Source of the DNA: Bacteroidota bacterium
Lineage (GTDB): Bacteria > Bacteroidota > Bacteroidia > Flavobacteriales_F > PHOS-HE28
Direction: 5' to 3'
Assembly: GCA_014584605.1 (NCBI GenBank)
Contig: JACTMO010000079.1
Span: forward strand, 1-64,000
Length of the DNA: 64,000 nucleotides
Both the position numbers and the translations under genes were made by a program. Each line of letters opens with the position of its first letter. Positions within the stretch are counted from its first letter, which is position 1. Shown here one piece after another: positions 1,148 to 11,713 of this stretch. The notes under the pieces were generated by a model. The model had not been told where the DNA came from and did not search any database. It was given only the letters and a program-made list of their open reading frames with translations.

Positions 1148-2614
1148 ATGCGCCACTCCGTCCGCTTCCTTTCCGCCATGGCCGGCCTGCCGCTGGCCCT
1201 GGCCGCCACGGCCCAGACCGAAGGGCCCTCCTTCACCGTCACCGGCACTGGCATCGCCACAACGCTGGCCTCGGACTATCAGAGCATCGGCATCAACCCG
1301 GCCAACCTGGGCTGGGACCTGAAGTACGAGGACCCGCGCTTCGTCTTCGGGCTGCTGGAGGCCACCTACGCGGTGCATACCACCGGGGCCACGCGCAAAG
1401 TGCTGCGGAAGGACATGCTCCGCGACTTCGACCGCACCTTCAGCGGAAAGGAACAGGACGCCGCCGCGAAGAACTTCAGCGATGCCGACCTGGCCCTGAA
1501 CGCCGATGTACGGCTGCTGGGCTTCAGCTTCCTGAACGACGATGCGGGGGGCTTCGCCGTCAGCATCGGCGACCGCTTCCAGTGGGACAGCCACTTCAAC
1601 AGCACCACCAGCGACCTGCTCTTCCAGGGCCGACATGCCTCCTACTTCACCCATCTGGAGCTGACCGACGGCACGGTGATCGCCAACCGGCCCGACCTGG
1701 GCGCGGACACCCTGGCCATGGTGCGCCGCGGCTTTGTGGACCCCGGCCAGGGCCAACGCATCAGCCAGTTGATGAGGGACACCCGCATGACGCTGAGCTG
1801 GACGCGCGAGTACGCCTTCTCGTGGGGCCGCCGCCTGTTCACCACCGGCACGGTGGAGTGGCACGGTGGCATCGGCTTCCGCTACCTGCAGGGCTTCGCG
1901 CACATCGACATCGGCGAGAAGGACGGGCGGTGGCAGGCCTTCAGCGCCCTGAGCCCCGTGTTCGACGTGGACTACGGCACGGCTGCCGCCAGCAACCCCA
2001 GCACGGTGGGCGGCAGCGGGCTGCGCAGCGTGGGGCGCGGCTTCAGCGGCGATGTCGGCATCAGCGCGGTGTACAAGGACCGCCTGAAGGTGGGCGTGGC
2101 CGCCACGGGTCTGGGCTCCATGACGTGGGATGGCAACGCATACAGCGCCAAGGACGACACGCTGCACACCCTGGACAGCCCGGGCTTCACCAGCTACAAC
2201 TTCTTCGACCAGGCCGAAGTGATCGCCTCGGAACTGGGCATCCTGGACTGGGACGGGGTGGTGGAGAAGCGCGTGTCCACGCCGGCCATGCTGCGCGTGG
2301 GCGTGGGCTATGTGGTGCCGGACAAGGCCGAGGTGGGCCTGGACGTGGTGCTGCCGTTGAACGAGGTGCCCGGCAACCTGGCCAAGCCGCAGTTCAGCGT
2401 GGGCGGGGAGTACAGCCCGGTGAAGTTCCTCACCCTGCAGGCCGGCGTGGTCACCGGTGGCAACTACGACACCCGCCTGCCCATGGGCCTGCTCTTCCGC
2501 CTGCCCTCGGGCCAGTGGGAGGGTGGCTTTGCCAGCCGCGACATGCTCTCCTTCTTCAGCCAGGACACGCCCACGGTCTCCCTGGCCATGGGCATCCTTC
2601 GGTTCCGGATCTAA
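1148..2614 (+). CDS. DUF5723-type outer-membrane beta-barrel protein
   Basis: 488 residues beginning with a signal peptide (cleavage probably after AATAQ, about residue 24). The mature protein has the alternating, glycine- and aromatic-rich strands of an outer-membrane barrel and ends in a phenylalanine-containing strand (MGILRFRI). The early motif SIGINPANLGW followed by long loops resembles the Bacteroidota DUF5723 family, which is related in fold to PorV/FadL barrels. Function unknown; a pore or surface-assembly factor is possible. It is followed after 51 bases by the TPR/caspase-like gene in the same direction, so co-expression is plausible. Family assignment is from recalled sequence pattern only. 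Confidence 0.7.
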   Translation: MRHSVRFLSAMAGLPLALAATAQTEGPSFTVTGTGIATTLASDYQSIGINPANLGWDLKYEDPRFVFGLLEATYAVHTTGATRKVLRKDMLRDFDRTFSGKEQDAAAKNFSDADLALNADVRLLGFSFLNDDAGGFAVSIGDRFQWDSHFNSTTSDLLFQGRHASYFTHLELTDGTVIANRPDLGADTLAMVRRGFVDPGQGQRISQLMRDTRMTLSWTREYAFSWGRRLFTTGTVEWHGGIGFRYLQGFAHIDIGEKDGRWQAFSALSPVFDVDYGTAAASNPSTVGGSGLRSVGRGFSGDVGISAVYKDRLKVGVAATGLGSMTWDGNAYSAKDDTLHTLDSPGFTSYNFFDQAEVIASELGILDWDGVVEKRVSTPAMLRVGVGYVVPDKAEVGLDVVLPLNEVPGNLAKPQFSVGGEYSPVKFLTLQAGVVTGGNYDTRLPMGLLFRLPSGQWEGGFASRDMLSFFSQDTPTVSLAMGILRFRI

Positions 2615-2665: not shown

Positions 2666-4864
2666 ATGCCCCAACGGATCGCCACCTGCCTGCTGATCGC
2701 CATCTGCCTGGTCCTGGCCCCCGCCGCGTCCGGTCAGAGCGGAAAGGCGTTCTTCAAGGATGCCGAGGCGTTGCGCGAAGCCCAGCGGCTCACCGAGGCC
2801 CTGGAGAAGTACGGCCTGGCGGTGCAGGTGGAACCCGGCATGACCAAGGCCTACCAGGCCCGCGCAGAGGTCTTCGTCCTGCTGGGCCGGCGCGAGGATG
2901 CTGCGGCGGACCTGCTGAAGGTGCATGAGCTTGACCCCAGCGATGCCGGCCATGCCGCCCGCGCGGCCCTTGCCTTGCTGGAAGTGGGACGCGACCGCGA
3001 GGCCCGGACCTTGTGCGACAAGGCGCTGGCGATCGACCCGAAACACTTGGACGCCCTGGAGGCCAAGGTGCGCGTGTGCCTGGCACTGAACGACCTGGAC
3101 GGCGCCGCCGCCGCCAGCGATGCCGCCCTGGCCCAGAAGGGCACCACCGACACCTACTACCTGCACGGCCTGGTGCGCATGGCCCAGCGCGACTACCGCA
3201 CCGCCGAGGCCGATCTGGAGCGCGTGATCGAGTGGAACTACCTCTACGAGGATGCCTACGTGGCATTGGCCGAGGTGCAGCTCAAGCTCTTCGAGCAGTA
3301 CAGCGGCCCCACCATGCAACTGCGCACCCTGGACAAGGCCGTGGAACGGACCACCACCGCGCTGGAACTGAACCCGCGCAGCACCTCAGCGCTCTTCACC
3401 CGCAGCAAGGCGTACGCCCTGCAGAAGGAGTACGCCAAGGCCATCGACGACATCAGCAAGGTGATCGCCAACGGACGCACCGATGCCGAGGTGTTCCTCC
3501 AGCGCGCCCGCTACTACAACGGCCACGGCCAGCAGCAGAACGCGGTCAACGACCTGAACCGGGTGCTGCAGGAAAGGCCCGAGGACGTGCAGGCGCTGCT
3601 GCTGCGCGCCGCATGCAAGGAGGCCAACGTGGACCTCGAGGGGGCCCTGCACGACCTGGACCTGGCGGCCAAGGCCCTGCCCGACGGCCTCCACGCAGAA
3701 GGCGTCACGGCGCAGGACATCCAGGAGCGGCGCAAGCGGGTGGCCGATGCGCTCTTCGAGCTGAACCGGGAAGAGGACCCGCCGTCGATCACGCTGGTGG
3801 AGCCGGGCCGTGCAGGGGATGTTGTGCATGTGGGCAGCGCCCTGCGGCAGATCAAGGTCGCCGGGCATGTGCGCGACCGCAACCTGTTGAAGGCCATCCG
3901 CGTCAACGGCACGGAGGCCGACTTCGGCAAGGACGAGAAGGACCCGGAGTTCTTCACCAGCATCCCGTTGGCGGCCACCGAGGAGCGCCTCACCGTGGAG
4001 GCCGAGGATGTGTACGGCAACATCGCCACCATCGACCTGAAGGTGGAGCGTACCGAGGGGGAAGCACCGGTGCTGGTGCTGACCTCGCCCGAACCGGGCC
4101 CCGACCGGATCATCACCGTACCGCACGGCCGCGAGGAACTGTTCCTCGAAGGTCTGGCCACCGATGCCAGCATCATCCGCAGGGTGACGGTGGACGGCAT
4201 CGTGGCGAGCTACGTCCCCGACACCAACCGCACGGAGTTCAGCATCAAGCTGGTGATCGCCGGCAAGGACCGGATCACCGTGCGGGCCGAGGACCGTTTC
4301 GGCAACGCCGGCGAACTGCAGGTGCAACTGCAACGCAAAGCGGCCCCGCCGCCGACCGATGGCGGTGCCACGGCGGACAGGCCCGTCGAAAGACCTGCGG
4401 AACGGCCGCCCGGGAGGTCCGGTGGTGGTACCGTCTCCTCGGGGACCACCTGGGTGGTGTACATCGAGAACAGCGATTACCGCAGCTTCCCGGCCTTGCT
4501 GGGGCAGGGCAGCGATGCATCCAAGATGCAGAAGGCCTTCGCCAAGTACGATGTACAGCGCACCATCTCCCGGAAGAACATGAGCAAGCAACAGCTCGAG
4601 CGCTTCTTCAGCACCGAACTGCGCGACCTGGTGCGCAGCAACAAGGTGAACACCGTGCTGGTGTGGTATGCCGGACATGGCCGCACCGTGGGCGGCAAGA
4701 GCTACTGGATCCCCGTGGATGCGAAGAAGGATGACATCTACACCTTCTACAACTACGGCCCGCTGAAGAACCTGATCGAGAACTACAGCGAGTCGGTGTC
4801 GCATACGCTGGTGGTGAGCGATGCCGCCGGATCGGAGGCGAGCTTTTACGACCTCACCCGGTAG
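2666..4864 (+). CDS. Secreted TPR/Ig-like protein with degenerate C-terminal caspase-like domain
   Basis: 732 residues. A signal peptide (residues 1-24, ending AASGQ) is followed by about nine TPR helix pairs (about 25-370), two Ig-like domains (about 375-560, each with an ED-x-(Y/F)-GN-A/I motif), a Pro/Arg/Gly-rich linker (about 560-590) and a caspase (peptidase C14)-like domain from about 593. The catalytic histidine is present in WYAGHGR (His671). Where the catalytic cysteine normally sits (DAC-x-G) the sequence reads SDAAGSE, so Ala721 replaces Cys. The protein then stops 11 residues later, losing the rest of the p10-like half. No continuation exists in another frame, because the next gene begins with its own signal peptide three bases after the stop. 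The domain is therefore probably a non-proteolytic binding module. Likely co-transcribed with the downstream cyclase. Confidence 0.8.
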   Translation: MPQRIATCLLIAICLVLAPAASGQSGKAFFKDAEALREAQRLTEALEKYGLAVQVEPGMTKAYQARAEVFVLLGRREDAAADLLKVHELDPSDAGHAARAALALLEVGRDREARTLCDKALAIDPKHLDALEAKVRVCLALNDLDGAAAASDAALAQKGTTDTYYLHGLVRMAQRDYRTAEADLERVIEWNYLYEDAYVALAEVQLKLFEQYSGPTMQLRTLDKAVERTTTALELNPRSTSALFTRSKAYALQKEYAKAIDDISKVIANGRTDAEVFLQRARYYNGHGQQQNAVNDLNRVLQERPEDVQALLLRAACKEANVDLEGALHDLDLAAKALPDGLHAEGVTAQDIQERRKRVADALFELNREEDPPSITLVEPGRAGDVVHVGSALRQIKVAGHVRDRNLLKAIRVNGTEADFGKDEKDPEFFTSIPLAATEERLTVEAEDVYGNIATIDLKVERTEGEAPVLVLTSPEPGPDRIITVPHGREELFLEGLATDASIIRRVTVDGIVASYVPDTNRTEFSIKLVIAGKDRITVRAEDRFGNAGELQVQLQRKAAPPPTDGGATADRPVERPAERPPGRSGGGTVSSGTTWVVYIENSDYRSFPALLGQGSDASKMQKAFAKYDVQRTISRKNMSKQQLERFFSTELRDLVRSNKVNTVLVWYAGHGRTVGGKSYWIPVDAKKDDIYTFYNYGPLKNLIENYSESVSHTLVVSDAAGSEASFYDLTR

Positions 4865-4867
4865 CCG

Positions 4868-7800
4868 ATGCGGGCCATCCTCTCCTTCCTGGTGGCGGCC
4901 ATGGCTCTGCCCTTGGCCGGGCAGCGCTTCTACTTCGAGCGCCTCGACATGCGGAACGGGCTCACCTCGGGCAACGTTTATGACGTGGTGCAGGACAGTA
5001 CGGGCCTGGTGTGGCTGGGCACGGAGGACGGGCTGGTGAGCTTTGACGGTCGCGAGCGGACGGGCATCGCCACCTACGGGCCAGCGGAAGGCACCGCCGC
5101 CAAAGGCGTACGCTGCCTGATGATCGACCGGGATGGCAGGCTCTGGGCGGGTCATACCGGAGGGGGCATCACGCGGTCCTCCGGCAGTTCCTTTTCCGTC
5201 CTGACCCTTCCGGGCGAACCGCTCACCACGGATATCACCGCCCTGGTGCAGGATGCCGATGCCGCCGTGTGGGTGGCCACGATGGGGCAGGGCGCCCTGC
5301 GCATCGGTCCCGTTGCGCACGGCGGTCCGCTGACGGTGGAGCGCTTCGGTCACGACCAGGGGCTGCTGGACCACCTGGTGGACGCCCATCGTTTCCGCGA
5401 CGGCACCCTCGCCTTCCTGGAGGACGGCGGGACCATGAAACGCTGGGACCCCACCACCCGGCGCTTCACCTCCCTGGAGTGGAAAGGGATGGAGGATGTG
5501 CTGGGCATCAGCGCCCTGTACGAGGACTCGAACGGACGTCGATGGCTGGGCACACAGGCCAGTGGCGCCTTCGTGCTGGACCCCCGCAGCGGCCAGGTGG
5601 TCAACCACAACGTGGCCGGTGGGATGCCGAGCGATTTCGTGACCTGCTTCGGCGAAGATGCCGTCGGCCAGGTGTGGGTGGGCACCTGGGGCGGTGGTGC
5701 CGCGGTGATCGGGTTGCAGGGCATCCGTCGCCACTACCACCCCGGCAACGGCTTGGAGAGCGTGCACATCCGCCGGATCATCCGGGACCGCGAGGGCAAC
5801 ATGCTGCTGGCCACCAACGACCGCGGTCTCAACATCTTCAAAGGGGAGCAGTTCATGAACCTGCTGGAGCAGGACGGGCTTCCGGACCAGCAGGTCTGGG
5901 CCGTGATGGAGGACCGCTTGGGCCGCATCTGGTTCGGCACCGACGGGGGCTTGAGCGTCCTGGACCCCCGCGTACAGGGCACCGGGATGATCAAGAACAT
6001 GCAAACGGTGCGCACCGCGCGGGTGCGTGCGCTGGCGCAGGGCCGCAACGGCAACGTGTGGGTGGGTACCGAGAACGACGGGCTGGTGGAGTTGGACCCC
6101 GTGGCCTTCCAGCCCGTGCCGCACCCCGACCTGGACGTGCTGATCCCGCGCGGCAAGGTGACCGCCCTGGCCGTGGGCGGGTCGGACGATCTGTACATCG
6201 GCACCATCACCGGCCTGCGTCGGTACACCGAAGGTGCGCCGCCCATGGTGTACACCGAAGAGGACGGCGTGCCCGCCGCACCGGTGACCGCCCTGTTCTG
6301 CGACACCCAGGGCACCGTGTGGGTCGGCAGCAAGGACCGGGGGATCAGCCGCATCGACCAGGGCAGGGCCAGACCGGTGGACCTGGGAAGGAGCCTGACG
6401 CCCACAGCCTTCGCGCAGGACGATCGCGGCCGCCTCTGGGTGGGCACCCGCAACCAGGGCCTGGTGGTGCTCGCGGACGGCCGTGAGGAACGCACCTGGA
6501 CCCAGGACGACGGCCTCCTGGACAACACGGTGCGCTCCTTGTTGTACGACGCCGGGGGCGCCCTGTGGATCGGGACCGTGAACGGGCTCAACTGCCGGCC
6601 CAAGGGCCAGGATGGCTTTCTGCCTTACACGGAACGCTCGGGCTTCATCGGGGTGGAGGCCAAGCCCAATGCCGCCTGTCTCACCCGCTCCGGCGATCTG
6701 TGGTTCGGCACGGCCCGCGGCGCCACCCGCGTGGTACCTGGAATGGGGAAAGGAGCGCCCACGCCTCCGATCACGGCGCTGCGCGGGCTCAGCGTGAACC
6801 AGGAGGACCGCCCCTTGGAACAGGACCTGAGCCTGGCGCACAACGAACGGTCCATCCGCATCCGGTACGGCTCGGTGAGCCTGAGCGACCCCGGCGCCGT
6901 GCGCTACAGCACCTTCCTGGAAGGGCTCGACCCCGACTGGCAGCCCTTGACGACGACCACCGAGGCGTTCTTCCCGGCACTGCCGCCCGGCCGCTACACC
7001 TTCCAGGTGAAGAGCATCAACCACGCCGGCTTGTGGAGCCCCCCGGTCAGCCTGTCCTTCACGGTCCTGCCGCCCTGGTACCGCACGTGGTGGTTCTACA
7101 CGGCGCTCACGGCCTTCATCGCGCTGGTGCTCTTCAGTTGGGTGAAGGTGCGCGAACGCCAGCTGCGGGCACGCAACCAGCTGCTGGAGACCAAGGTGGA
7201 GGAACGAACGGCCGAGGTCCGGGCCCAAAGCCGCGAGATCGAGTACCAGAAGGGCCGCATCGAGGACCTGCTGCTGAACATCCTGCCCAAGGAAGTGAGT
7301 GAAGAGCTCAAGGACAAGGGCCGGGCGACGGCGCGGCGCCACGAGGCGGTCACCGTGCTCTTCACGGACATGAAGGGTTTCACCAAGGCCGCGGAGAACA
7401 TGAGCCCTGAAGAACTGGTCAGCGAGCTGGACGAGTGCTTCATCCGCTTCGATGAGATCACGGTCCGCTACGGTATCGAGAAGATCAAGACCATCGGGGA
7501 CAGCTACATGTGTGCCGCCGGCGTGCCGGTCGCGGACCCGCACCACGCGGTGAAATGCGTACTGGCCGCGCTGGAGGTGCGCGACCTCATGGAGGATGCG
7601 CGCCGTCAGCGCGAGGCCAGGGGCAAGGCACCGTGGGCCCTGCGCATCGGGGTGCACAGCGGTCCGGTGGTGGCCGGCGTGGTGGGAAGGCGCAAGTTCG
7701 CCTACGACATCTGGGGCGATACGGTGAACACCGCCAGCCGGCTGGAGAGCAGCGGCGAACCGGGGGAGGTGAACATCAGTGGCACCACCCATGCCCTGGT

Positions 7801-7981
7801 CAAGGGCCGCTTCGAGTGCGCATACCGCGGACGCGTGGCCGCCAAGAACAAGGGCGAGATCGACATGTACTTCGTGCGTCGCATCCTTCCCGGCTTCAGT
7901 GCCGATGAGGCGGGCAGCAAGCCGAACGCGCGGTTCCTGCAGGAGATCGGCGTGGCTTCAACCGCCGAGCAGCTCGCGTAG
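4868..7981 (+). CDS. Membrane adenylate cyclase with two-component-type propeller sensor
   Basis: 1037 residues: signal peptide (1-19), a periplasmic beta-propeller of repeated VWVGT/LWFGT-type units (about 20-640), a Y_Y_Y Ig-like domain (about 650-735, ending FTVLPPWYRTWW), one membrane helix (about 741-762), a coiled coil (about 765-815) and a class III nucleotide cyclase domain (about 820-1010). Both metal aspartates are present (Asp834 in FTDMKGFT, Asp878 in IGDSYM). The substrate-selecting pair is Lys874 and Asp947, the combination that reads adenine; Asn954 and Arg958 complete the active site. It should act as a homodimer making cAMP in response to a periplasmic ligand. In Bacteroidota this sensor normally feeds a histidine kinase. 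The gene starts 3 bases after the preceding stop, and its last 24 bases overlap the convergent Nudix gene. Confidence 0.9.
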   Translation: MRAILSFLVAAMALPLAGQRFYFERLDMRNGLTSGNVYDVVQDSTGLVWLGTEDGLVSFDGRERTGIATYGPAEGTAAKGVRCLMIDRDGRLWAGHTGGGITRSSGSSFSVLTLPGEPLTTDITALVQDADAAVWVATMGQGALRIGPVAHGGPLTVERFGHDQGLLDHLVDAHRFRDGTLAFLEDGGTMKRWDPTTRRFTSLEWKGMEDVLGISALYEDSNGRRWLGTQASGAFVLDPRSGQVVNHNVAGGMPSDFVTCFGEDAVGQVWVGTWGGGAAVIGLQGIRRHYHPGNGLESVHIRRIIRDREGNMLLATNDRGLNIFKGEQFMNLLEQDGLPDQQVWAVMEDRLGRIWFGTDGGLSVLDPRVQGTGMIKNMQTVRTARVRALAQGRNGNVWVGTENDGLVELDPVAFQPVPHPDLDVLIPRGKVTALAVGGSDDLYIGTITGLRRYTEGAPPMVYTEEDGVPAAPVTALFCDTQGTVWVGSKDRGISRIDQGRARPVDLGRSLTPTAFAQDDRGRLWVGTRNQGLVVLADGREERTWTQDDGLLDNTVRSLLYDAGGALWIGTVNGLNCRPKGQDGFLPYTERSGFIGVEAKPNAACLTRSGDLWFGTARGATRVVPGMGKGAPTPPITALRGLSVNQEDRPLEQDLSLAHNERSIRIRYGSVSLSDPGAVRYSTFLEGLDPDWQPLTTTTEAFFPALPPGRYTFQVKSINHAGLWSPPVSLSFTVLPPWYRTWWFYTALTAFIALVLFSWVKVRERQLRARNQLLETKVEERTAEVRAQSREIEYQKGRIEDLLLNILPKEVSEELKDKGRATARRHEAVTVLFTDMKGFTKAAENMSPEELVSELDECFIRFDEITVRYGIEKIKTIGDSYMCAAGVPVADPHHAVKCVLAALEVRDLMEDARRQREARGKAPWALRIGVHSGPVVAGVVGRRKFAYDIWGDTVNTASRLESSGEPGEVNISGTTHALVKGRFECAYRGRVAAKNKGEIDMYFVRRILPGFSADEAGSKPNARFLQEIGVASTAEQLA

Positions 7982-9099: not shown

Positions 9100-10044
9100 C
9101 TACCGCCCCAAGGACCGCCACCACCGTTGCCCGCGCAGGCGGTGTTGCCCGGCGTCCCAGGACAGCAGCACGCGTGCGGCACGGCCCACCAGATGGTCCG
9201 CCGGCACGAAGCCCCAGTGGCGCGAGTCGGCGCTGTTGTGGCGACTGTCCCCGAGCACGAAATAGTGATCGCGGGCGATCACCGCCCGGGTGGCCGGCGC
9301 GCCGTCCAGGAGCAGCCCGTCCTTTCCCACTTCGAGCACATGCCCTTCGTAGCGCGTGAGGATCCGATCGTGGAGCGGCAGTTGGGCGGGGTCCAGGGAT
9401 ACGCTGTCCCCTGCGGCCGGCACGCGCAAGGGGCCGTAGGCATCGCTGCTCCACGGATGGAAGGGACTGAAGGGGAAGAGGTGGCGCGCCGGACGCCGGC
9501 TCAAGCTCATGGGTTCGGCCGCGCGCACGCCCGTCACACGTTCGAGCCGCCGGGCCAGGGTCGGGTTGAGCGGAAGCTCCAGCTGCCGTTCGCCGCCGTT
9601 CACGAAGGCGCGCGGCGATCCGATGGCCTCGGCGATGCTGTCCAGGGAGGTGCCCGGGGCGATGCGGACCAGATAGCGGCGCGTCTCACCGGGCCAGGGC
9701 GGCAGCGGGTCGCCGTTCACCAGCACCAGTCCGGCGCGCAGCTCCACGGTGTCGCCGGGCAGGCCCACCACGCGCTTCACGAGCAGCTGGCGCTTGCGCA
9801 CCGGCCGATCGTCCTGGGCGGGATCGCGGAACACCAGCACATCGCCGCGGCTCACACCGGTCCACATCGGCCAGCGCTGCACCACCAGCAGGTCGCCGGG
9901 CACCAGCGTGGCGAACATGCTGGTGCTCTCCACGATCACCCAGCGAAGCACGAAGGCATGCACCACGGCCATCAGCAGCAGGGCCTGCACGAAGGCCCGG
10001 GTCCAGGGTCCCAGGCGCAACCAACGGTGCCACAGCGCGCGCAT
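9100..10044 (-). CDS. lepB: Signal peptidase I (shorter copy)
   Basis: 314 residues. A membrane anchor lies near residues 18-38, followed by the S26 peptidase boxes: box B with the nucleophile Ser42 (ESTSMFATL, Thr instead of the usual Pro before the Ser), box D with the general base Lys90 (LLVKRVVGLPGD), and box E near the C-terminus (GDSRHNSADSRHWGFVP). It removes signal peptides from exported proteins at the outer face of the inner membrane. A second, larger copy lies 27 bases upstream in the same run. An insertion of about 120 residues separates boxes D and E, which is usual for Bacteroidota paralogues. Confidence 0.9.
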   Translation of the reverse strand: MRALWHRWLRLGPWTRAFVQALLLMAVVHAFVLRWVIVESTSMFATLVPGDLLVVQRWPMWTGVSRGDVLVFRDPAQDDRPVRKRQLLVKRVVGLPGDTVELRAGLVLVNGDPLPPWPGETRRYLVRIAPGTSLDSIAEAIGSPRAFVNGGERQLELPLNPTLARRLERVTGVRAAEPMSLSRRPARHLFPFSPFHPWSSDAYGPLRVPAAGDSVSLDPAQLPLHDRILTRYEGHVLEVGKDGLLLDGAPATRAVIARDHYFVLGDSRHNSADSRHWGFVPADHLVGRAARVLLSWDAGQHRLRGQRWWRSLGR

Positions 10045-10071
10045 CGCCCAAAGCTCGGCGATCGGCGGGGT

Positions 10072-11631
10072 TCACTCCAGGCCGTTGCGCACCACGGTGA
10101 ACAGGCGCTTCCAGCGGATCCCGGTGTAGGGGTCCTTGGTGAACCACACCAGCACGGCCTTGCCCACCACGTGGTCATGCGGCACGAAACCCCAGAAGCG
10201 AGCGTCCTGCGAACGGTGCCGGTTGTCGCCCATCAGCCAGTAGTAGTCCTGCTGGAAGGTGTAGCTGGTGGCCGGGGTCCCGTTGATCAGGATGCGGTCG
10301 CCCTCCACGCGCAGGTCGTTGTGCTCGTACACCCGGATCACGCGTTCGTACAGCGGCAGGTTGGCGGTGGTCAGCGCCACGGTGGCCCCGGCCTTGGGGA
10401 TCCACAGCGGGCCGAAGTTGTCCTCCGTCCAATCGAAGGCCGGATGGTTGGGGAAGTAGGGCAGCTTGTGGTAGGGCGAGCTGTAGCCCTTGGGATGGTC
10501 CTGCCGCGTCATGCTGACCACGTTGCTGAAGCCTTTCAACCTGGCGGCGTTGGCCTCGGTGAGCGGGATGCTGACCCCGCCGTTCTCGCCCTGCGAGAGG
10601 TCGTCCGGGCTGATGTCGTACTGCTCCTTCAGCATGCGCTCGTTGAAGCGGTCCTTCAGCATGAACTCATAGGCGTACTGGGCCATGTCGGGCACGTGCT
10701 GCTTCACACCGTTGATGTACACCAGCCCGCCGCGCACCTCCACGGTATCGCCGGCCACGGCCACGCAGCGCTTGATGTAGTTCTCCTTCTTGTCCAGCGG
10801 CCGCACCAGGATCCCGCCGGTGGGCATCTGCCGCACCTGGCCGTCCACCATGTTCAGCATGCGGTAGTTGGGGTCGTGGATCTTCTCCCGGCCGTGGTCG
10901 CGCACCAACTGGTAATAGCTCTGGTTCTGGAAGTTGGCCACCACCGTGTCCCCCTCCGGGAAGTTGAACACCGTAGCATCGCCCCGCTGCGGCGTGCCGA
11001 AACCGGGCAGCCGACGGTAGGGCTGGCTGAACCAGGTGACGAAGCTGGGCGTGCTCGCCGTGAGCGGCATCGTGTGGTGCGTGAAGGGGAAGGTGAGCGG
11101 GGTCATCGGCATGCGCGGCCCGTAGCTCAGCTTGCTCACGAACAGGTAGTCGCCCACCAGCAGGCTCTTCTCCATGCTGGGCGTGGGGATGGTGAAGGCC
11201 TCGAAGGTGAAGGTGCGGAACACCGTGGCCACGATGACGGCGAAGAGGATCGCATCGCCCCACTGGCCAAGGAGCCCGCGCTTGCGCTGGGCCACGGGGA
11301 TCGGGCCCACGTAGGCGTGCCTGGGCGAGAAGGCCAGCTGCGGGACCTTCACCCACGGCAGCAGGGTCATCACCAGGTGGTCCTTGAAGGTGCGCTCGCC
11401 CAGAGTGATGCTGATGTTCACGTTCATGATGATGAACATGAGCAGGTTGACACCGGGAACCAGGAAGAGGAAGATCCACCACCAGGGCTTGCCGCAGAGC
11501 TTCAGCCAGATCAGCAGGTTGTAACCGGGCACGAAGCCTTCCCAGGCCTTGCGGCCGGCCTTGACGAAGTACTTCCACAGGCTGCCGAACAGGACGGCGA
11601 AGTAGGCGAAGAGAAAGAGGTAGGGGATCAT
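10072..11631 (-). CDS. lepB: Signal peptidase I (long Bacteroidota form)
   Basis: 519 residues, far longer than the E. coli enzyme (324). Residues 1-100 form an extra hydrophobic N-terminal module with two helices (about 3-18 and 50-70) containing a WEGFVPGYNLLIW motif. A third helix (about 125-142) anchors the S26 peptidase domain. The nucleophile is Ser152 (IPTPSMEKSL), the general base Lys287 (NYIKRCVAVAGD), and box E reads GDNRHRSQDARFWGFVP. A large insertion (about 165-280) lies between boxes. The ATG at 11631 was chosen because the upstream extension of the frame runs antisense-like through the dapB end. Likely the housekeeping signal peptidase; the downstream copy is a paralogue. Confidence 0.92.
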   Translation of the reverse strand: MIPYLFLFAYFAVLFGSLWKYFVKAGRKAWEGFVPGYNLLIWLKLCGKPWWWIFLFLVPGVNLLMFIIMNVNISITLGERTFKDHLVMTLLPWVKVPQLAFSPRHAYVGPIPVAQRKRGLLGQWGDAILFAVIVATVFRTFTFEAFTIPTPSMEKSLLVGDYLFVSKLSYGPRMPMTPLTFPFTHHTMPLTASTPSFVTWFSQPYRRLPGFGTPQRGDATVFNFPEGDTVVANFQNQSYYQLVRDHGREKIHDPNYRMLNMVDGQVRQMPTGGILVRPLDKKENYIKRCVAVAGDTVEVRGGLVYINGVKQHVPDMAQYAYEFMLKDRFNERMLKEQYDISPDDLSQGENGGVSIPLTEANAARLKGFSNVVSMTRQDHPKGYSSPYHKLPYFPNHPAFDWTEDNFGPLWIPKAGATVALTTANLPLYERVIRVYEHNDLRVEGDRILINGTPATSYTFQQDYYWLMGDNRHRSQDARFWGFVPHDHVVGKAVLVWFTKDPYTGIRWKRLFTVVRNGLE

Positions 11632-11713
11632 CAGGCTGCGAAGGTGCGCAACGATCGGGCAGCGACCATGCGCAGGTGGACGAACGGGCGGGAAGCCGGG
11701 GCGGGCGGCAGGG

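Follow-up and report, generated by a model that had tools for sequence, protein, structure and literature searches.

Gene and domain layout at the locus

The 64,000-nucleotide stretch of DNA that we analyzed (the window) carries, at positions 2666–4864 of its forward strand, an open reading frame for a secreted protein of 732 residues with TPR, Ig-like and half-caspase domains. Its signal peptide (residues about 1–24, MPQRIATCLLIAICLVLAPAASGQ; 2666–2737) was read by eye from the sequence as a hydrophobic N-terminus followed by Gln24, a residue that is invariant across 76 orthologues, and suggests that the protein is periplasmic. A TPR solenoid formed by residues 26–366 (2741–3763), matched by Pfam TPR models and predicted by AlphaFold2 (AF2) as helices with pLDDT values mostly of 95–98, is followed by two Ig-like β-sandwich domains (residues about 374–463 and 482–557; 3785–4336). 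The latter are visible as sandwiches of AF2-predicted strands and through a match to Pfam Glucodextran_B (28.3 bits over residues 396–461 of the 732-residue protein). The Ig models PF00047, PF13895 and PF13927, the criterion for paracaspases used by Klemencic et al. (2019, PMC6426788), gave no match in the 732-residue protein at E values up to 0.1. A disordered, proline-rich linker (residues 563–591; 4352–4438; pLDDT <50) then leads to the half-caspase, or p20-like, domain (residues 592–732; 4439–4861), which was identified by Pfam Peptidase_C14, by AF2 and by superposition on caspase-1.

The full-length protein matched Peptidase_C14 (PF00656) with 34.0 bits, against a cut-off of 21.4, and the match covered positions 4–107 of the 233-position profile, or 3–126 when the domain was scanned alone. 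By homology the protein thus belongs to the C14 family, but it has neither the DxC cysteine nor the p10-like half of an active C14 peptidase. The former catalytic histidine, His671, is retained in a WYAGHG motif (codon 4676–4678), whereas the position of the catalytic cysteine is occupied by Ala721 in the sequence SDAAGSE (codon GCC, 4826–4828). Only 11 residues further on, the protein ends at Arg732, the last residue of a conserved SFYDLTR end (4841–4864 with the stop codon; TAG at 4862–4864). The next gene begins three bases past this stop, with an ATG at 4868, and encodes a signal peptide. The initial annotation, made from the letters of the window, had claimed the histidine motif, the alanine at the cysteine position, the end 11 residues later and the start of the next gene, with its signal peptide, three bases downstream, and each of these claims held. 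Loss of proteolytic activity is what these residues would imply.

The annotation had also proposed that the domain is a caspase fold carried on a periplasmic TPR/Ig stalk, a proposal that would have failed had structure prediction returned no such fold. AF2 modeling of the domain with 61 aligned sequences gave a predicted caspase fold (pLDDT 78.7, pTM 0.78), and the full-length model (pLDDT 87.6) reproduced the layout of TPR solenoid (26–366), two β-sandwiches (374–557), disordered linker (563–591) and half-caspase (592–732). Residues 727–732 were predicted at pLDDT <50. The best solved matches of the domain model in Foldseek were MALT1 and caspase-1. VIA-align superposed model residues 1–135 onto residues 159–289 of the caspase-1 large subunit (Z 12.6, rmsd 3.0 Å over 125 residues), an offset that places Ala721 on Cys285. 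The predicted structure and the genus-wide conservation described below thus support the stalk-borne fold; the binding role suggested along with it is a more conditional matter, taken up in the last section.

Conservation in the genus and intact orthologues elsewhere

We examined 45 genomes of the family and order, all of which fall in one genus of uncultured Bacteroidota, and found the domain in 39. The catalytic cysteine is replaced in every one of these (Ala in 37, Val in one and Ser in one), and the protein ends at the identical residue in 39/39, after S-F-[YF]-[ED]-L-T-R or one of the minor variants SFYDLSR, SFYEMTR and SVYELTR. The stop codon itself is TGA in 22 genomes, TAG in 14 and TAA in three; with three codon types at one site, it is the place of termination and not the codon that is conserved. 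Both His671 and Asp617 persist in 36 of the 39 genomes, and Asp719 persists in 35, the other four having Lys or Asn. The histidine count comes from whole-genome searches, since the pattern-based scan of a sequence collection favored His-bearing sequences and is unusable for counting His loss.

Within the genus, conservation along the protein peaks in the half-caspase domain, with an identity of 0.735 as against 0.598 and 0.558 for the other regions. When the window was compared with its three closest relatives, the dN/dS of the domain was 0.09–0.16; another close pair of loci, L082/L083, gave 0.02. The median dN/dS was likewise lowest for the domain (0.27, versus 0.35 for the TPR and 0.42 for the Ig regions), although high G+C and saturation in distant pairs affect dS, so that we draw evidence from the close pairs alone. 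The domain is therefore clearly constrained in sequence, which points to purifying selection. Indeed, half a caspase domain can persist for tens of species without its other half. The phylogeny of the domain alone (126 columns) leaves the inner order of the pseudo-caspase clade without resolution.

Intact orthologues were found outside the genus. A pattern scan of the genome_contigs collection returned 33 loci of the genus, which are named records of genomes already among the 39, and 47 loci from other Bacteroidota records (Flavobacteriales, Bacteroidales and others, one of them labeled Chlorobiota), to which we refer as the outgroup. All 47 fetched outgroup orthologues have the catalytic cysteine, in DACESG in 46 and DACASG in one. 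Measured from the tblastn start, their C14 domains are 233–235 residues long, versus 135–142 in the genus, and they extend about 92 residues beyond the genus end point; this extension is the missing half. Genus and outgroup proteins align over the TPR, Ig and caspase parts with 30–34% identity at full length and 48–56% identity in the shared part of the C14 domain. The 15 out-of-genus loci read from a class-wide sample were all of the intact type, and a phylum-level sample of 395 genomes, which leaves room for others, gave no further match at an E value of 1e-15. In a domain tree built without the Cys-motif columns, active and distant C14 sequences each fell on one side of a branch with support of 100. 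Since all five distant C14 sequences have the cysteine, parsimony makes this the older state.

The alignment with homologues for which the initial annotation had called therefore shows that the loss of the cysteine and the short end are common to all congeneric orthologues. Full-length orthologues with an intact cysteine exist, but outside the genus only, which identifies a subfamily rather than local decay. The annotation had further argued, from the closeness of the next gene, that the short end is not a sequencing frameshift, and this is borne out by the same cysteine loss and end point in 39/39 genomes with three types of stop codon. Sequencing or assembly error, a recent pseudogene, local decay and chance are thus explanations of vanishingly small probability: the 39 genomes agree, dN/dS of close pairs is well below 1, and nothing was found in their favor.

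We also searched for the missing half elsewhere, using the p10-like half of an orthologue (102 residues) as the query. There was no match in the genome from which the window comes, nor was a second C14 protein or other caspase homologue found there. Across 44 genomes of the genus nothing matched at E <0.001 except in one genome, G041, in which the hit belongs to a separate 385-residue intact caspase with the motif DACFSG; the idea that another gene encodes the missing half was accordingly rejected. This extra caspase (L166, G041:C76) contains hydrophobic segments that, as judged by eye, may lie in the membrane, and it is located apart from the pseudo-caspase locus.

The adjacent sensor gene and its output domain

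The gene that begins at 4868 and ends at 7981, on the same strand, encodes a protein of 1037 residues (the partner), in which Pfam Reg_prop, Y_Y_Y and Guanylate_cyc models match. Its layout is a signal peptide, Reg_prop repeats forming a β-propeller, a Y_Y_Y domain, one transmembrane helix, a coiled coil and an output domain, the last being the catalytic domain of a class III adenylate cyclase (residues 822–1003; 7331–7876). The cyclase retains FTDM, KTIGD and YDIWGDTVNTASR, which we take to be the residues expected of an active, ATP-using class III cyclase. The NCBIfam models gave no name above cut-off for either the half-caspase protein or the partner. A PADLOC scan for defense systems gave no caspase match for the half-caspase protein, its sole match being a weak PrimPol hit, and the partner was matched only as a generic cyclase: the PycC models, built for cyclases of Pycsar defense, hit it in the cyclase domain only, with 56.1 bits, as they would any class III cyclase.

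When the neighbors of the half-caspase gene in the window were used in tblastn searches, the downstream gene proved to be the one common to both clades. It follows the C14 gene in 33/33 genus loci and lies downstream of it in 43 of the 47 outgroup loci; of the remaining four, three run out of sequence no more than about 350 bases from the C14 gene, and L152 is the last. The output domain differs between the clades, a swap that the initial annotation had missed along with the linked sensor gene itself. All 30 uncut genus partners combine the disarmed caspase with a class III cyclase output, whereas all 37 uncut outgroup partners, which accompany a Cys-bearing caspase, have a SpoIIE (PP2C) phosphatase in its place, a correlation that amounts to one evolutionary event on each side, so that the species are not independent and their counts show conservation only. 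The outgroup orthologues (L114–L160) thus resemble the window in architecture, gene order and an orthologous sensor ectodomain, and differ from it in the DACxSG cysteine, the roughly 92 additional residues and the phosphatase output. The pair of a caspase gene and a Reg_prop/Y_Y_Y/SpoIIE gene is itself conserved across these outgroup loci, and its phosphatase part resembles SiaA (NF038263, 192 bits against a cut-off of 700).

The ectodomain of the window's sensor scored 352–480 bits against outgroup partners and at most 218 bits against in-genus Reg_prop paralogues that carry a cyclase. In an ectodomain tree, the genus partners, the outgroup partners and the in-genus paralogues separated with supports of 99–100. 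Similarity of the partner to the outgroup ends at about residue 800, and similarity to other cyclases of the genus begins at about residue 786. On the simplest reading of these sequences, the genus partner and the phosphatase-bearing sensor would be orthologues, and the output domain of the genus partner would have been exchanged near the coiled coil. The genus is rich in class III adenylate cyclase paralogues, with dozens of matches across its genomes at 50–60% identity in the catalytic domain, and such paralogues are the likely source of the new output domain.

The two genes are also absent together. Two genomes that are 99% complete (G020 and G048) lack both the domain and the orthologous partner, although the fabI and nudix/tpr/lepB flanks are present in them, and present together; the 1.1-kb gap between fabI and nudix in G020 holds no trace of either module gene. 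In a fabI tree, both genomes fall inside a group of species that have the module (support 100/100), which indicates that the pair was lost rather than never gained. Two further genomes, G056 and G057, also lack both genes but are only about 82% complete.

Several other features of the neighborhood were seen. A gene for a DUF5723 protein lies upstream in the window (1148–2614); beyond the closest relatives, such a gene was detected beside the module in just two loci, L090 and the outgroup locus L120. The fabI–nudix interval of a module-less genome (L174, about 923–2068, about 1.1 kb) lacks this gene as well as the two module genes. On the minus strand of the window, two adjacent genes for signal peptidase I (lepB-like; 9100–11667) are conserved beside the module in the genus.

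Proposed function and relation to known caspase homologues

The reading that we favor, at somewhat better than even confidence, is that the protein is a former protease that now serves as a secreted pseudoenzyme, a binding module in a periplasmic receptor complex that controls cAMP. The ancestor of the genus would have had a periplasmic TPR/Ig/caspase protein that lost both its catalytic cysteine and the entire p10-like half, and the residual p20-like half would have been retained by purifying selection as a noncatalytic binding module on the TPR/Ig stalk. The half-caspase protein would then most likely act as a periplasmic co-receptor or regulatory subunit of the downstream Reg_prop/Y_Y_Y sensor: the sensor ectodomain might change state when it binds the pseudo-caspase protein, or a ligand that this protein has captured, and the activity of the cytoplasmic adenylate cyclase would change in turn. 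Both the physical contact with the ectodomain and the control of the cyclase, and hence of cAMP, are inferred. Adjacency and joint loss could instead mean co-regulation of the two genes within one pathway.

A protein with a scaffolding or structural role in the envelope, unrelated to the sensor and kept beside it by shared transcription alone, is unlikely but deserves serious thought, as TPR and Ig-like domains are common among periplasmic scaffolds. Against this, the pair is retained from the genus to other Flavobacteriales and to Bacteroidales records while the rest of the neighborhood varies, and both genes are jointly absent from the same site. A protein in which the TPR/Ig stalk is the working part, and the half-caspase an idle leftover on its way to loss, would fit the low-confidence tail of the model and the loss of His671 in three and of Asp719 in four of the 39 genomes, which indicates that former active-site residues are relaxing; we nevertheless consider this decidedly improbable, because no other part of the protein is as well conserved in the genus as the half-caspase, whose end motif and stop position are found in all 39 genomes.

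Two further alternatives give the half-fold a more enzyme-like role. Half of the substrate cleft of a caspase is built by the second part of the domain, and the absence of that part counts against a role as peptide receptor, in which the half-caspase would be a decoy or trap that still holds a basic residue of a target peptide or protein in its p20-side pocket. Asp719 is moreover Lys or Asn in four genomes, and we regard this role as improbable. In its favor, Asp719 lies two residues before the cysteine position, as does Asp211 of Trypanosoma brucei MC2 (PMC6426788), and Asp617 is, by motif position, the likely equivalent of Asp95; with these two residues retained in most genomes, a pocket for basic side chains is conceivable, as has been argued for cyanobacterial pseudo-orthocaspases (PMC6426788). 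The other alternative is a split enzyme: a different protein would contribute the p10-like half in trans to form an active complex, or some other chain would complete the half-domain. The sheet is cut after the catalytic strand, which exposes an edge that the second half covers in full caspases, and the conserved S-F-[YF]-x-L-T-R end might suit a partner protein. We think this very unlikely: the search of the 44 genus genomes found a p10-like half only within the separate intact caspase of G041, and the alanine at the nucleophile position in 37/39 genomes means that catalysis would be lost even if that half were supplied.

Taken more broadly, and only tentatively, the comparison of the clades suggests a two-gene envelope module of Bacteroidota, a periplasmic caspase with a Reg_prop sensor over a PP2C phosphatase, that would have been rebuilt in one genus with a half-fold pseudoenzyme and a cyclase, so that a proteolytic signal may have become a binding signal that controls cAMP. 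To our knowledge, it is mostly unknown what bacterial caspase homologues and their inactive relatives do. The gene pair offers a concrete partner to test, and the orthologous pairs, intact in one clade, disarmed in the other and tied to two sensor outputs, constitute a natural experiment and a route to asking what the proteolytic step contributed. Word searches of one literature library found no description of a caspase/Reg_prop/SpoIIE module, a result that falls short of proving absence.

Inactive bacterial caspase homologues as such are already known and make up 8.6% of bacterial sequences (Klemencic et al. 2019, PMC6426788). In that survey, 90% of pseudo-orthocaspases were from Alphaproteobacteria or Cyanobacteria, 10 of 1078 Bacteroidetes sequences were of this kind, and Tyr-Ser was the commonest dyad, with His-Ala variants mentioned for Rhizobiales. 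Pseudo-orthocaspases have a p20 domain with a substituted dyad, and the window protein appears to be of this type, with His-Ala in place of the His-Cys dyad and no p10 in its truncated domain. What is new is a Bacteroidota clade with a genus-wide His-Ala form whose fold, in addition, always stops at one residue, and in which this change goes along with the exchange of the output domain in a linked sensor. The paracaspase MALT1 combines Ig domains with a caspase domain, as the window protein does, and is its nearest solved sequence at a nonsignificant E value of 0.045; the eukaryotic MALT1 has enzymatic activity and a complete caspase domain, and the likeness is at the level of the fold only. 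The EACC1-associated caspase model NF047832 aligned to the p20-like half of the window protein with 25.7 bits, against a cut-off of 140. The alignment covered positions 3–83 of its 211, compared with 3–209 for the outgroup orthologue at L114.
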